From Desulfosporosinus nitroreducens (GTDB lineage Bacteria; Bacillota; Desulfitobacteriia; Desulfitobacteriales; Desulfitobacteriaceae): a stretch of DNA of 37,654 bases. The DNA is taken from the NCBI RefSeq assembly GCF_023897015.1, contig NZ_JAMHFY010000037.1, positions 1-37,654 on the forward strand. Reading direction: 5' to 3'. A program made the position numbers and the translations under genes. Below, piece after piece: positions 1,627-9,111 of the stretch (positions are counted from its first letter, which is position 1; each line of letters starts with the position of its first letter). Below the pieces are notes generated by a model. It was given only the letters and a program-made list of their open reading frames with translations, was not told the origin of the DNA and made no database searches.

Positions 1627-2505
1627 TTATTGTTTCGAAGATTTCATTTCATTTGTAAACAAACTTTGAACAGCATCTGCCTGAGCTTGAGTTATAGTTT
1701 CTGCCGTTACGAGACTATCCAAGACACTGGAAAACCCGCCTTTGCCTCTTTTCTGATCTACACTATTATCCGGATCACCTGTAGGTTTTGCTGCTTCGAG
1801 AGCCGTTTGAATCGCATCTACTTGAGCCTGTGTTATTGTTCCTGCTGTTACCAGACCATCTAAAACGCTTGCTGAGTCTGAGGGTTTCGCTGCCTTGAGG
1901 GCTGTTTGAACCGCAACTTCTTGAACTTGTGTTATCGTTTCAGTTGTTACGAGACTATCCAAGACATTTGAAAACCCGCCTTCACCTCTTTTCTGATCTC
2001 CACTTTTATCCGGATCACCTGTAGGTTTTGCGGCTTCGAGAGCCGTTTGAATAGCATCTGCCTGAGCCTGTGTTATCGTTCCTGCTGTTACTAGACTATC
2101 TAAGAAGCTTGCCGAGTCTGAGTCTGAGGACTTCGCAGCCTTGAGGGCTGTTTGAATCGCATCCGCTTGAACTTGTGTTAAAGTTTCAGCTGTTACGAGA
2201 CTATCCAAGACACTGGAAAATCCGCCTTTGCCTCTTTTCTGTCCACTTTTATCCGGATCACCTGTAGGTTTTGCTGCTTCAAGAGCCGTTTGAATCGCAT
2301 CTGCCTGAGCCTGTGTTATTGTTCCTGCTGTTACTAGACTATCCAAGTTGTTTGCAAATCCACCTTGTGGTGCGGCTGACTGTATTTGAGCTAAGAAGTT
2401 TTGAGTGGGTACAGTGGCTCTGCTTGACTGATTTGCATAAACACCTGCTGTGGACATAAGTGTTGCTATAGCAGTTAGGATTACAATTGATTTTACTTTT
2501 TTCAT
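1627..2505 (-). CDS. secreted six-repeat protein
   Basis: 292 residues from ATG 2505, which follows an AAGGAGGG ribosome site; the open frame continues 21 codons upstream without one. Residues ~1-25 (MKKVKSIVILTAIATLMSTAGVYA) are a Sec signal peptide with an AxA-type cleavage site. The mature part is six units of the type LDSLVTAGTITQAQADAIQTAL, alternating with two kinds of linker: a long one (AAKPTGDPDKSG.QKRGKGGF) and a short Ser/Asp one. So the gene is three tandem copies of an ~80-residue double unit. Each unit reads as a helix-turn-helix-like pair rich in Ala, Thr and Gln. No catalytic residues are visible. Surface or matrix role is a guess. An 11-bp-spaced repeat array lies upstream. 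Confidence 0.7.
   Translation of the reverse strand: MKKVKSIVILTAIATLMSTAGVYANQSSRATVPTQNFLAQIQSAAPQGGFANNLDSLVTAGTITQAQADAIQTALEAAKPTGDPDKSGQKRGKGGFSSVLDSLVTAETLTQVQADAIQTALKAAKSSDSDSASFLDSLVTAGTITQAQADAIQTALEAAKPTGDPDKSGDQKRGEGGFSNVLDSLVTTETITQVQEVAVQTALKAAKPSDSASVLDGLVTAGTITQAQVDAIQTALEAAKPTGDPDNSVDQKRGKGGFSSVLDSLVTAETITQAQADAVQSLFTNEMKSSKQ
1680..2390 (-). repeat. tandem ~240-bp coding repeats
   Basis: The DNA encoding the secreted repeat protein contains about three near-identical copies of a 240-246 bp unit (for example the blocks beginning near 1707, 1947 and 2193). High nucleotide identity suggests recent duplication or gene conversion; copy number may vary between strains. Confidence 0.75.
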
Positions 2506-2669
2506 TAGGTAGACCCTCCTTAAATTTAGCTTTGTTATCATTGAGCTGGACAAATCTTTATGTAGCAACCCATTTGTCAGAGATGATTCCTGTATATGTG
2601 TGTAACATACCTAAGAATCAACGCTTTCACTCGAAATGATTGAGTACAATGTTATTATGCAATATCAAT

Positions 2670-2729
2670 CTGAAATTGGTCTGAATCTTACCTGAAAGTT
2701 TACTGAAATTCATCTGAATGTATCCTGAT
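2670..2729 (-). promoter_or_regulatory. six 11-bp-spaced direct repeats (OmpR/PhoB-type array)
   Basis: On the + strand CTGAA occurs at 2670, 2681, 2692, 2703 and 2714, and CTGAT at 2725, exactly 11 bp apart; on the minus strand this is TTCAG every 11 bp. Direct hexamers with an 11-bp period are the usual binding pattern of OmpR/PhoB-family response regulators. The array points at the secreted repeat-protein gene (start 2505); a -10-like CATAAT follows on the minus strand near 2653-2658. The rest of the 2506-3041 gap holds no gene that I can support. Confidence 0.6.
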
Positions 2730-3041
2730 CTTGTTGGACACCTTGTCCGACTGAAGGAGTTACCGCAGTTCTGGTTCCACAAGATTAACGATTTATTTAA
2801 TCTACTCAATTCTTAATTTAATTGAAGTCTCACAATAAGGTAACCGCAATGAGCCCTGTAACCATATAGCGCTATAAATTTATTGGGCCATATTCCCGTT
2901 GCCAGACCTCCTTGCTATAATGGTTATGTGAATTTTTAAAACACAGTCCACATTAAACGAAATAGCTATAAATGAAGGACCATATTCTCGATCTCTAATT
3001 TGACACCTAAAGAAGTTTATGTAATAAAAAGGAGCTTCTAA

Positions 3042-3635
3042 ATGTTAGCGGAGTTTAAAATTATTAATGACCCCTTGCGTCCTAGTATTTGTACCAATCT
3101 TTGTTCAGTTTGTTACCGAAATAGTAAGAATGGGAGTAAAAGCATCGGCTGCTGTTCTTATGAACCAGAATTCTGTCTTTTCGATTTAGTATTTTTATAT
3201 CTTCATTACCCTAAGTTTTATAAGTTGATCTTAAAAAAAGGTCATATAATTAAGGGATATAACGGAATAATGATAGAAATGAAATCCGGCTTCAACCATT
3301 GCCCCTTCGCAAGTGACTCGGGTTGTGTCTTACCAAGGGATGCCATAACGCCTCTGTGCCGGTTATTCATATGCCGGGAAGCGGCCATCTTTGGACCAGA
3401 CATAGTCGAAGAAAAATTCGATGAATATTTTTCCAGCAAGGAATATGACTTAAATCTCTTTTTGAATAGTAAATTGGTACATGACAAGGATTTTACCAAG
3501 GCAAGACTACACAATTTTATAGTGGAATTTTCCCCAACAATAAACACTATGATTGCAGGAATCAATAGAATTAACCCGCCGATAGAAACTTTCAATATAG
3601 AAATGAAGCTTGAGGATTTTGGAATACTCCTATAG
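3042..3635 (+). CDS. cysteine-rich protein, putative metal-binding (YkgJ-like)
   Basis: 197 residues; ATG 3042 follows an AAAAAGGAGCTTCTAA ribosome site. Cysteines cluster at the N-terminus (C17, C21, C24, C37, C38, C45) and again in CPFASDSGCVLPRDAITPLCRLFIC around residues 87-111. That pattern resembles the cysteine-cluster (YkgJ-type, putative Zn/Fe-chelating) proteins, though I cannot confirm the family. No membrane segments or signal peptide. The gene ends in TAG; read-through would add 12 residues before TGA. It stands alone, facing away from the upstream array, and converges on the direct repeat at 3648. Confidence 0.5.
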   Translation: MLAEFKIINDPLRPSICTNLCSVCYRNSKNGSKSIGCCSYEPEFCLFDLVFLYLHYPKFYKLILKKGHIIKGYNGIMIEMKSGFNHCPFASDSGCVLPRDAITPLCRLFICREAAIFGPDIVEEKFDEYFSSKEYDLNLFLNSKLVHDKDFTKARLHNFIVEFSPTINTMIAGINRINPPIETFNIEMKLEDFGILL

Positions 3636-4527: not shown

Positions 4528-5382
4528 CTAAGTGATATCTTTACTAGAAAATTTCCGTATTGCTAACATCACAAATCCGAGCATGTAAATGGCTATATAG
4601 ACAAACATCCATAGACTTGCTGGTTTGCCACTGCCCGATAAACTGGCAGCAGACATTGCACTTGCTGCCAGCTCAGAATTCGGAACCATGACCCGTTCCA
4701 TCGTACTATAAATCGTTTGGAACGGTGAAATCAAGCTAATAAAAATTCCAGTACCAATGACTGAGTTGTTACTCACGTACTGCCCAATCATCTCGACCAT
4801 TCCCCCAACATTACCTAAAATGTAAATGAAGATCATTAAGATTCCATTGGACACTGCTTTTAAGGACACAGATCCAAACAATGTCAGGCAAAGGACTGCG
4901 ACTGGCAGCAATAGATACAACAACCATCCTGTAATGATTTGAGAGAACGTTAGACTGGTTATCGTGCTAAGCCCAAAAAAGGCTCCGATGACCAGAATTA
5001 ATGAGAAAAGCAATGTTGCGTAGGTACAGGCTAAAATAACCAATCCGCCAAGTTTCCCAAGGATATACTGATAGCGTTGAATGGGACGAGAGAGAATCCC
5101 TTGAATGAGTCCTGACTCTAGTTCTGAGGCAATTGCACCCGATCCAAGCATAATAGTCAGCAAAGCTATTAACATGGCCGAAAACTGAAAACCCATTTTC
5201 GTAACCATTTGAATCGCAAAAGGCTTAAATTGATTTCCCATGCCATGAGTCACTGATGTGTTGGGAAAATAATTAAGCATTAATGTCCAAAATACCAAGT
5301 ACAAAAAGGTGACAATCCCCATTATGATAAACGTTTTTTTACGAATAGCTTCATTTAGCGTTGTGATTAATATAGCTACGAT
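4528..5382 (-). CDS. ABC-2 type transporter permease
   Basis: Membrane subunit partner of the ATPase next door. From the first ATG (5322) it has 264 residues with about six membrane segments, ending TAG. That ATG lies inside the expected first segment. The frame continues upstream as VAILITTLNEAIRKKTFIIMGIV, a normal start for ABC-2 permeases. The upstream codon with a GGAGGG site at the right distance is ATC (5380-5382), overlapping the ATPase stop. So either a rare ATC start is used, or an ancestral ATG has mutated and a shortened protein is made. The substrate is unknown; gene order resembles small membrane-stress or peptide exporters beside two-component systems. Confidence 0.7.
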   Translation of the reverse strand: MVAILITTLNEAIRKKTFIIMGIVTFLYLVFWTLMLNYFPNTSVTHGMGNQFKPFAIQMVTKMGFQFSAMLIALLTIMLGSGAIASELESGLIQGILSRPIQRYQYILGKLGGLVILACTYATLLFSLILVIGAFFGLSTITSLTFSQIITGWLLYLLLPVAVLCLTLFGSVSLKAVSNGILMIFIYILGNVGGMVEMIGQYVSNNSVIGTGIFISLISPFQTIYSTMERVMVPNSELAASAMSAASLSGSGKPASLWMFVYIAIYMLGFVMLAIRKFSSKDIT

Positions 5383-6284
5383 GATTGTCCCTCCTCGCCA
5401 ACAATCTGCATAAACACAGTTTCAAGCGTCTCTCGATGCGGCGTTAACTCATATAGTGTTACACCATTGGAGACAAGACTAGATGCAAGGGCAGGAATTT
5501 CCTCGTAATCGTTTAAAGATACTGTTAGACTGCCATCTGCTAGTTTTTGCAATGATTCGTGTTGTTTATTCATCTTTGCAAACAATTCTTCAGTTAGGCC
5601 ATTGGCCCGGATTGTTAACAATATTTTAGTCATTAGTAACTCATCCATCCGCGCGGATTTAACAACTTTACCTTTGTGAATAAAGGTAACACTGTCACAA
5701 ACTGCTTCCACTTCACTTAAAAGATGACTGTTTAAAAAGACCGTTGTTCCTTCATCTTTCAAAGAAACAATAATGTCTCTGACATCTTTACGACCAAACG
5801 GATCCAGAGCAGATGTTGGTTCATCTAGGAAGATCAGTTGTGGATTAGGCAACAGCGCACAGGCTAACCCGATGCGTTGCTGCATGCCTTTACTATATGA
5901 ACCCACTTTGTAGTTTTCTTGCCCAACGAGTCCTACTAACTTTAAGACCCTGCTAATTTGATCCTTCTTATTTTTCAATTTGAATAATTGGGCGTGGAAA
6001 CTCAGCAAATCCAAACCAGTCATCCAGTCTTGATAACGGAAAAGCTCAGGGAGGTAACCCATCTTTTCTCTCGCAGAAACATCACCAAGGGGTTTGCCAA
6101 GTACTGTGCCGCTTCCGGATGTCGGGAATACAAGACCCGTTAACATCTTAATACAAGTACTTTTCCCAGCACCGTTACGGCCAAGGAATCCATAAACTTG
6201 CCCAGCTTCTACTGAAAGGCCAATTTGGTCACATGCCGTTTTATTGCCATACTTTTTAGTAAGAGCATGTGTTTCGATGATCAT
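5376..6284 (-). CDS. ABC transporter ATP-binding protein
   Basis: 302 residues. Walker A GRNGAGKS at ~35-42, signature SKGMQQ near residue 135, and Walker B LIFLDEPTSALD followed by the His of the H-loop (LNSHLLSE). A C-terminal ~90-residue extension follows, as in ABC-2-type drug, lantibiotic or Nos-type exporters. ATG overlaps the TAA of the exported-protein gene (TAATG at 6282-6286), so translation is probably coupled. It ends with TAG. With the permease it should form an exporter controlled by the adjacent two-component system. Confidence 0.88.
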   Translation of the reverse strand: MIIETHALTKKYGNKTACDQIGLSVEAGQVYGFLGRNGAGKSTCIKMLTGLVFPTSGSGTVLGKPLGDVSAREKMGYLPELFRYQDWMTGLDLLSFHAQLFKLKNKKDQISRVLKLVGLVGQENYKVGSYSKGMQQRIGLACALLPNPQLIFLDEPTSALDPFGRKDVRDIIVSLKDEGTTVFLNSHLLSEVEAVCDSVTFIHKGKVVKSARMDELLMTKILLTIRANGLTEELFAKMNKQHESLQKLADGSLTVSLNDYEEIPALASSLVSNGVTLYELTPHRETLETVFMQIVGEEGQSS

Positions 6285-7388: not shown

Positions 7389-8441
7389 TTAATTTCTAAA
7401 TGGCAATTTAACAACAAATGTTGTCCCTTGTCCAATTTCACTGGTAAAATCTATTTCTCCATCGTAGATTTCCACGATCTTCTTAACGATTGCTAAACCA
7501 AGACCGCTCCCCTCTTTGGAATGGGATTCATCGACTTGAAAAAATTTCTCAAAGATTCGTCCTTGATCGATTTTGGATATACCGATACCTTGATCCTTGA
7601 TCTCGGCAACGACCTTGTTCGAAGTTTTTCTCGCTTGAATAAAAACAGTTCCGGACTCAGCAGAGAATTTAATAGCATTCTCAATTAAGTTCAACCAAAT
7701 CTGTTGGATCAGGGCTTCGTCACCAGTGTAAACTATTTCATCTAGATCTATGTCGAGTTCTAAGTTTTTCTTAGACCATTTTTCCTCTAGAAGGACAATC
7801 GTCCTCCGAATTTGCTCATCTAAAGAAAACTGTTTCGTGCTCTCTGGGATGAATTGATGATCCAGCTTAGAAAGTCGAAGCATATTTGAACTTAAATGGC
7901 TTAATCTCTTGGTCTCATCAATGATGATGTTTGTGTAAGCCTGAAAATTTTCTTCCGACAGCTCCTTATCTTGAAGCATTTCAGCGAAGCCTTGGATAGA
8001 CGAAATAGGTGTTTTGATCTCATGGGACACGCTGCTAATAAAATCTTTGCGGAGATACTCCATATTACCGAGTTCAGTCGTCATTAAGTTGAAATTCTGG
8101 GTCAAAACCCCTATTTCATCATTGCTCTTATAATCCATCTTGATTGAAAAATCACCCTTAGCAACTTCTTTTGTTGCATTGCTGATCCGAATGATAGGGT
8201 CAGAAATTTTCCGAATCGCGAAGAATAATAGTGAGCCTCCCAAGGCTACACATAAGATCAATGTCACGAACATGAAACTTCCAAAAACTGCATGCGCTTC
8301 GCTAATACTCAGATCACCATGATAGAGCACTAAGAAAAGAATCGTCATCAGAGAAAAAGAAACAAAACAAGAGAAAAACAAGATTCCGATGGCAATCAAA
8401 GTACCTTTGGCCCGAATTGAATTTGACAATTTCTTAACCAT
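7389..8441 (-). CDS. sensor histidine kinase (HAMP-HisKA-HATPase)
   Basis: 350 residues from ATG 8441, which overlaps the last codons of the response regulator (ATGGTTAA) and follows GGCGGAG. Two membrane segments (~14-40 and ~52-77) bracket only a short extracytoplasmic loop, so it probably senses the membrane or a partner. HAMP ~75-130; phospho-acceptor His140 in SVSHEIKTP; N box NLIENAIKFS; G boxes DQGIGIS and GSGLGLAIVKKI. This is the compact intramembrane-sensing type often paired with ABC exporters. It should phosphorylate the regulator encoded immediately upstream. Confidence 0.88.
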   Translation of the reverse strand: MVKKLSNSIRAKGTLIAIGILFFSCFVSFSLMTILFLVLYHGDLSISEAHAVFGSFMFVTLILCVALGGSLLFFAIRKISDPIIRISNATKEVAKGDFSIKMDYKSNDEIGVLTQNFNLMTTELGNMEYLRKDFISSVSHEIKTPISSIQGFAEMLQDKELSEENFQAYTNIIIDETKRLSHLSSNMLRLSKLDHQFIPESTKQFSLDEQIRRTIVLLEEKWSKKNLELDIDLDEIVYTGDEALIQQIWLNLIENAIKFSAESGTVFIQARKTSNKVVAEIKDQGIGISKIDQGRIFEKFFQVDESHSKEGSGLGLAIVKKIVEIYDGEIDFTSEIGQGTTFVVKLPFRN

Positions 8442-9111
8442 AAATTTTCTCCGCCTTATAACCAAGTCCCCGAATCGTTATGATTTTAAACTCTGGCCTG
8501 TCTTCGAACTTCTTACGAAGCTTTTTAATGTGGCTATCCACCGTTCGTTCATCGATATCCGTATCCAGCCCCCAAATTTCAGACATAAGCTGTTGCCTTG
8601 TAAAAATTCGCTTTGGATAGCTCAACAGTTTAAATAGTAGCAGAAATTCTTTTTTGGGCAATTCAATATAAAGGTCTGGCCCATTTATGCTCAAATTATC
8701 ATAGTCCAGTACGATTTCACCTATCACAATTTTATGTTCATTGGTAATTTTAGCTCGTCTTAGCAGAGCCGCTACTCTCAAAATCATCTCGTTCATATCA
8801 ATTGGCTTTACCATATAATCGTCTGTACCCAGTCTAAAACCTTTCTCCTTGTCCTCAAAGCCCTCTTTAGCGGTCACCATTAAAATAGGCATGCTATAAT
8901 TTGCTTCTCTAAGGCTTTCAATAAGTTCGAAACCATCCATAAGTGGCATCATGATATCACTAATAATTAAATCGACATGTTGATCTTCGAGGATTTTTAG
9001 AGCTTCTTGACCATTTTGGGCTTGTAAAACTTTATAACCGGCTTGTTCCAAACGGGTTTTCATTAACATACGTAAGTTTTCATTATCTTCGACAACCAAA
9101 ATTGGAAACAT
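8434..9111 (-). CDS. OmpR-family response regulator
   Basis: 225 residues. Receiver domain 1-115 with acidic E8/D9, phospho-acceptor D52 (IISDIMMPLMDG) and the conserved Lys in DYMVKPID. A winged-helix DNA-binding domain covers ~130-225 (ELPKKEFLLLFKLL, RTVDSHIKKLRKKF, TIRGLGYKAE). First gene of the minus-strand block, with a TTGAAA/CATAAT promoter upstream. It overlaps the kinase gene by 8 bases. Likely controls the ABC exporter; the 11-bp repeats at 2670-2729 are the kind of site such a protein binds, but no link is shown. Confidence 0.9.
   Translation of the reverse strand: MFPILVVEDNENLRMLMKTRLEQAGYKVLQAQNGQEALKILEDQHVDLIISDIMMPLMDGFELIESLREANYSMPILMVTAKEGFEDKEKGFRLGTDDYMVKPIDMNEMILRVAALLRRAKITNEHKIVIGEIVLDYDNLSINGPDLYIELPKKEFLLLFKLLSYPKRIFTRQQLMSEIWGLDTDIDERTVDSHIKKLRKKFEDRPEFKIITIRGLGYKAEKIYG

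Follow-up and report, generated by a model that had tools for sequence, protein, structure and literature searches.

The stretch of DNA analysed here, called the window, covers 37,654 nucleotides of Desulfosporosinus nitroreducens and holds a gene for a DUF2680 protein that is preceded by six phased copies of the word TTCAG. This locus raises the question of which regulator would read such an array, and whether it would switch the gene on or off. On the plus strand, CTGAA stands at 2670, 2681, 2692, 2703 and 2714, and CTGAT at 2725; read on the minus strand from 2729 to 2670, the array is ATCAG followed by five TTCAG words, oriented towards the gene at 2505-1627. Direct reading of the letters confirmed an earlier sequence-only reading, which had placed six phased words here without a slip, at every position. 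The six-base spacers of the array differ from one another, and the TTCAG words are kept. The longest exact 11-bp-phased run in the window is 5, compared to longest runs of 1 (278 times) or 2 (22 times), and never more, when the window was simulated 300 times with a first-order Markov model. Likewise, the three-copy pattern with at most two mismatches matched 5 times in the window versus 0.08 expected, and four of these five matches are the six-copy array at 2670-2729.

The genome search that had been proposed, for at least three TTCAG words at an 11-bp period, bore out the pattern beyond the window. In the organism's own genome (5.46 Mb, 95 contigs), exact three-copy arrays gave 7 matches at four places (Table 1), compared to 1 match in the control. 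With up to two mismatches allowed, 33 matches were found versus 10 in the reversed control, which implies that many of the weaker matches in this genome are due to chance.

Table 1. Arrays, promoter elements and genes in the window and elsewhere
Feature	Location	Strand	Remarks
TTCAG array, exact	window 2670..2729	minus	six head-to-tail repeats, 11-bp period; before DUF2680 gene
-10-like hexamer CATAAT	window 2654..2659	minus	10 nt after last TTCAG
Ribosome-binding site AGGAGGG	window 2514..2520	minus	8 nt before ATG (from sequence)
DUF2680 gene, putative target	window 1627..2505	minus	292 aa; ATG at 2505; DUF2680 repeats (PF10925)
OmpR-type response regulator	window 8434..9111	minus	judged not to bind the TTCAG array
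OmpR/PhoB-type response regulator (C27 regulator)	C27:9980-10660		candidate binder; array upstream
Histidine kinase	C27:8478-9980		after C27 regulator gene
Exact array	C27:1579		before FlxA-like gene
Exact array	C27:10730		before response regulator-kinase operon
Exact array	C12:86283		before VTC, DUF4956 and Cthe_2159 operon
Six-copy array, inexact; weak-word order	C27:6934-6993 (own genome, G000)		before PepSY_TM gene
Inexact array	C7:33713-33761
Inexact array	C33:116616		before DUF4405 gene
Weak-word-order array	L094:13647
Weak-word-order array	L097:2952
Weak-word-order array	L098:12339
Weak-word-order array	L099:17843
Weak-word-order array	L105:14344

At the usual 17-nt spacing from the CATAAT hexamer, the window promoter has AGACCA, which agrees with TTGACA at 2/6 positions. 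Such a poor -35 is as expected of an activated promoter, and it is the reason that a plain sigma-70 and terminator scan of the window called no promoter on the minus strand. If transcription starts about 7 nt downstream of the -10, the leader would be about 140 nt long. The encoded protein has a signal-like N-terminus, as read by eye, and its repeated DUF2680 units likewise fit the description of a secreted repeat protein given in the sequence-only reading. Pfam matches of DUF2680 repeat proteins to families such as CARD, TFIIA_gamma_N and Tail_P2_I were discounted as products of the repeats; the CARD match of L186 even scores above DUF2680. The bases around and beyond the -10 (window 2640-2665, TATTGCATAATAACATTGT) are also alike in the DUF2680 promoters of several species, and an extra promoter element is possible there. 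On the plus strand, the window has a 197-aa frame at 3042-3635 that is cysteine-rich near its start and gave no Pfam match.

The layout recurs in relatives. Among 40 genomes, own included, the exact three-copy pattern gave 103 matches in 23 genomes versus 4 in the reversed control, where overlapping matches within one array were counted separately. We examined 62 distinct arrays, own genome included, of which 46 have four copies, 6 have five, 5 have six and 5 have three. A TATAAT-like hexamer peaks 10 nt after the last word, with a mean match of 4.39/6 compared to 3.16 at the next best offset, and the key -10 positions are strongly kept (A in 94%, final T in 92%). Since the arrays were picked by word matching, conservation of the words is built in, whereas the -10 lies outside the selection; L082 and L084, which have no coherent promoter, were left out of this set. 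The base after TTCAG is most commonly C (46%). The arrays of this set thus have both head-to-tail repeats of about 11 bp (three to six copies, six in the window) and a fixed position relative to the core promoter, as looked for in an operator of the OmpR/PhoB type. The sequence-only reading had proposed a multi-site operator of this type at a promoter, and had named beforehand a period that is not kept in relatives as evidence against it; the period is conserved and the distance to the -10 is fixed, both of which back the proposal. By these sequence comparisons, the window array is a conserved operator of an already known kind. The tight environmental control of the protein that was also proposed stays conjectural. 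It is fair to infer that its six copies would hold three tandem dimers, as had been suggested; cooperative binding of PhoP can extend to trimers and tetramers, according to the part of the structural account used here (PMC4832192).

Some six-copy arrays with weak third and fifth words, of nearly the same form in each, recur from Clostridia to Bacilli (Table 1). Their order is TTCAG, TTCAG, CTCAA/T/C, TTCAG or CTCAG, TTTAG or TTAAG, and TTCAG. In the own genome, an array of this form precedes the PepSY_TM gene; most of the others lie upstream of YkcB-type genes.

The sequence-only reading assigned the array to an OmpR/PhoB-type regulator, a class that appears right, and named the window regulator 8434-9111 as the candidate, a choice that is very probably wrong. 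That regulator is of the OmpR/PhoB type, lies about 6 kb from the array, and belongs to a family that reads direct repeats of about 11-bp period. However, its own promoter lacks a TTCAG array; the single 13-of-15 match at its locus, at 8073, is inside the neighbouring kinase gene. It is 33% identical to the regulator encoded at C27:9980-10660 (the C27 regulator), and its recognition helix reads R..D.H, in contrast to N..E.Y in the C27 regulator and PhoP. Across genomes, moreover, the arrays follow the C27 regulator. We consider it highly improbable that 8434-9111 reads the array, and rejected it as the binder. The two-component system at 7389-9111 adjoins an ABC-2 permease (4528-5322) and an ATPase (5376-6284).

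Among the 24 OmpR-type regulator genes of the own genome, whose loci extended up to 1.5 kb to each side of the matched domain except at contig ends, C27:9980-10660 alone has an upstream array. At E<=1e-80, the 40 genomes (own included) gave 22 copies of this regulator, and each is preceded by an array that scores 14 or 15 of 15; their shuffled upstream DNA never scored above 12/15. The best relative of the regulator is 97% identical, and its relatives place the group in or next to Desulfosporosinus. The C27-type regulator is common to Desulfosporosinus, Desulforamulus, Moorella, Paenibacillus, Brevibacillus and other genera. In 25 Firmicutes orthologs, a three-copy match of at least 13 letters lay on the regulator's strand, no more than 300 bases upstream, in 17 cases, and on the opposite strand only in 3. 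The other five (L110, L111, L113, L115 and L117) lacked an upstream three-copy match on both strands; a TTCAG pair with 9/10 letters is present in four of them, and L117 has nothing above chance. In 441 kb of Firmicutes ortholog loci, TTCAG gave 42 arrays at >=13/15 letters, compared to 0-2 for four scrambled words.

Exact arrays occur in 20 of the 22 genomes with the regulator versus 3 of the 18 without it (p=2.5e-6; 40 genomes). In the two genomes that have the regulator and lack exact arrays (G006 and G007), the regulator promoters score 14/15, and the three with an exact match and no regulator found are G013, which is 67% complete, G035 and G038. In 299 genomes sampled across the phylum, exact arrays were present in 10/14 genomes with the regulator versus 6/285 without it (p=5.5e-12). 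Both p-values overstate independence, because the species share ancestry. All six exceptions in the phylum sample, and one of the ten arrays that accompany the regulator (that of G060), consist of tandem repeats whose spacers are equal or almost equal; with these set aside, the counts become 9/14 versus 0/285, where the seven were called simple tandems only after inspection. Pure 11-bp tandem repeats that contain TTCAG do occur and mimic the pattern in regulator-less genomes (G127:C1:786578, G193:C89, G241:C140 and others), as would be expected if the window repeats, too, had arisen by chance or by mutational tandem duplication without any binding protein. However, the six-base spacers of the window array differ and the TTCAG words alone are kept, and relatives have arrays before homologous genes, so that we regard this origin as having a negligible chance of being correct. 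Taken together, the sequence comparisons strongly favour the array as an operator for the C27 regulator, which would bind in cooperative tandem fashion and activate the DUF2680 gene along with other envelope genes and the regulator's own operon.

The direction of control is suggested by the promoter geometry. The pho box of E. coli PhoB consists of 11-bp direct repeats that end about 10 bp before the -10 and replace the -35. The TTCAG array likewise consists of 11-bp direct repeats, with the last 10 nt before the -10 and the -35 missing; by contrast, its word and its regulator differ, and the C27 regulator falls below the cut-off of the PhoB model TIGR02154 (211.9 versus 296.2 bits). NCBIfam gave no name to either partner: none of the best 25 of 106 models for the regulator, or of the best 25 of 96 for the kinase, reached its cut-off. 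Judged from the sequence, the geometry matches an activator standing in for the -35. The same regulator on the same sites could instead use the array as a repressor operator, in which bound dimers obstruct RNA polymerase at the promoter of the DUF2680 gene; a last repeat 10 nt from the -10 is near enough to block, and a fixed spacing to the -10 fits a repressor too. Repression is nevertheless unlikely, given the poor -35 of the window promoter and a fixed 10-nt spacing, which is what activators such as PhoB need. Moreover, B. subtilis YclJ, a possible counterpart of the C27 regulator, is described as an activator in the sections of its published account used here (PMC7961091).

Activation by the C27 regulator could then proceed as follows. 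Each TTCAG, within a wider TTTCAGC word with a 4-bp gap, would be occupied by a single DNA-binding domain, all on the same face of the helix, so that six copies could accommodate as many as three head-to-tail dimers. The last copy lies 10 nt from the -10, and its neighbour reaches the position where the -35 is missing, which implies that RNA polymerase is most likely recruited by the phosphorylated regulator, with expression of the DUF2680 gene as the result. It would also switch on its own operon and other envelope genes. Physical binding, activation over repression, the dimer count, phosphorylation and an envelope-related signal are all parts of the mechanism that we infer.

We compared the recognition helix and box to those of Mycobacterium tuberculosis PhoP, whose chains fill the top rows when the C27 regulator is compared to solved structures (9ji3, E 5.3e-57; 3r0j and 5ed4, E 5.5e-57). 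In the part of the structural account used here, the PhoP box is TCACAGC-N4-TCACAGC, Asn212 and Glu215 contact the CAGC half, and Val213, Tyr217, Tyr220 and Ser216 contact the other side or the middle of the box (PMC4832192). Both systems have 7-bp words at an 11-bp period, and the C27 regulator would bind as a tandem head-to-tail dimer as PhoP does. The C27 regulator keeps Asn212, Glu215 and Tyr217, and its box keeps CAGC. In contrast, Val213 is replaced by Ile, Ser216 by Val and Tyr220 by Ser, and the box is TTTCAGC compared to TCACAGC (TTT for TCA). The phylum and the target genes also differ, and the arrays mostly have four to six copies. With 3/6 base-reading residues of helix alpha-8 identical (positions 212, 213, 215, 216, 217 and 220), the regulator is best described as PhoP-like and was not filed as PhoP. 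The box points the same way, with TTTCAGC in the array.

Helix and box vary together across relatives for which enough upstream DNA was available (25 Firmicutes orthologs, 32 actinobacterial relatives and 22 of 23 other paralogs). The helix of the Firmicutes orthologs is NIVEVYIRSLR or close to it, and 22 of the 23 readable ones carry NIVEVY. Exact TTCAG pairs were found upstream, on either strand, in 20/25 Firmicutes orthologs versus 0/32 actinobacterial relatives, whereas exact CACAG pairs were found in 0/25 and 7/32, respectively. Three actinobacterial relatives have TTCAG pairs with 9/10 letters, and the 22 other paralogs have neither exact pair upstream. L117, a 65% ortholog from Paenibacillus prosopidis, has an altered helix, NNVEVYIRYLR (Asn213 and Tyr220), and alone among the orthologs has no TTCAG pair that exceeds chance. 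Asn212 is changed to Gly in several actinobacterial relatives, one of which (L130) has exact CACAG pairs, which implies that the rule linking helix to box is not strict.

The genes behind the arrays indicate what the regulator might control. A script picked downstream frames for 65 arrays, 4 of which had none. Clustered by similarity, the remaining 61 frames comprise 21 response regulators, 8 FlxA-like, 6 DUF2680-like, 4 HlyD-like and 3 VTC proteins; the rest are 13 singletons, of which several may not be true frames, and three pairs from other families. The response regulators are mostly of the C27 type; the exceptions are in three relatives, with arrays upstream of other regulators (L066, which resembles L184, and L176, which differs), and could mean a regulatory cascade. 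Pfam placed DUF2680 above cut-off in 5/5 relatives' proteins tested, confirmed HlyD in the one tested, and matched DUF4405 in two frames, one just under cut-off. YkcB-type GT-C genes stand behind arrays at L097 and L210 (G030), both with a YkcB_C domain by Pfam (2/2 tested), and further such genes are alike by their first residues only. Weaker arrays precede genes for a trypsin/PDZ protease (L099), YceI (L108), ApbE (L118) and HlyD (L116). The list of putative targets (the regulator itself, DUF2680, FlxA-like, HlyD, VTC and YkcB-type) suggests envelope remodelling, and the array appears to be a switch common to related bacteria for joint control of several surface and envelope genes.

Control of DUF2680 genes was assessed in homologs of the window protein. 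The set was built from 47 match rows at 30 loci, of which 25 were used, since five were second matches to genes already counted; L281 was dropped for want of a readable start, leaving n=24, and several further homologs had no locus and lie outside the set. An upstream array of >=13/15 letters was present in 12/24, the window gene included, compared to 0.01 expected from shuffles, and the remaining 12 fell below 13/15. L283, which reads through stops, is a poor case in this set. In a 91% ortholog, one array word is weakened to TTAAG. Array control is thus probably common, and not universal, in the DUF2680 family. A promoter like this one also persists in G012 (82% identity over 160 bp), where a different gene lies some 600 bp further on.

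YkcB-type genes also connect the arrays to Bacillus subtilis. In the sections of the published accounts used here, YclJ is an activator of ykcBC and yngABC that increases under low oxygen by way of ResD (PMC7961091); the YrkP regulon is also said to include ykcBC, and the similar ykoST is under YkoGH control (PMC5836110). Because arrays precede YkcB-type glycosyltransferase genes in other Firmicutes (there are none in the window), a YclJ-like role of the C27 regulator is plausible by analogy, and YrkP and YkoG are equally open counterparts. By contrast, DUF2680, FlxA and VTC targets go unmentioned in these sections. A search of open-licence papers found no account of a TTCAG-array regulon, although one could be in print elsewhere.

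As a tentative proposal, these arrays may mark an undescribed envelope regulon across several Firmicutes families. In this proposal, the box of a PhoP-type regulator would differ from that of PhoP (TTTCAGC versus TCACAGC) owing to two or three helix residues, promoters would form a graded series set by how many strong and weak repeats they have and in which order, and DUF2680 proteins would be a main secreted output in the genus. The order TTCAG-TTCAG-CTCAA-TTCAG-TTTAG-TTCAG changes little between Clostridia and Bacilli. The match between helix and box (TTCAG versus CACAG) would provide a natural experiment on specificity change in OmpR-type regulators, with L117 as a natural helix variant of the C27 type. 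The DUF2680 family, whose function is unknown, gains a candidate regulator, site and promoter model, which would tie its proteins to a two-component system whose regulator is common to several Firmicutes genera.
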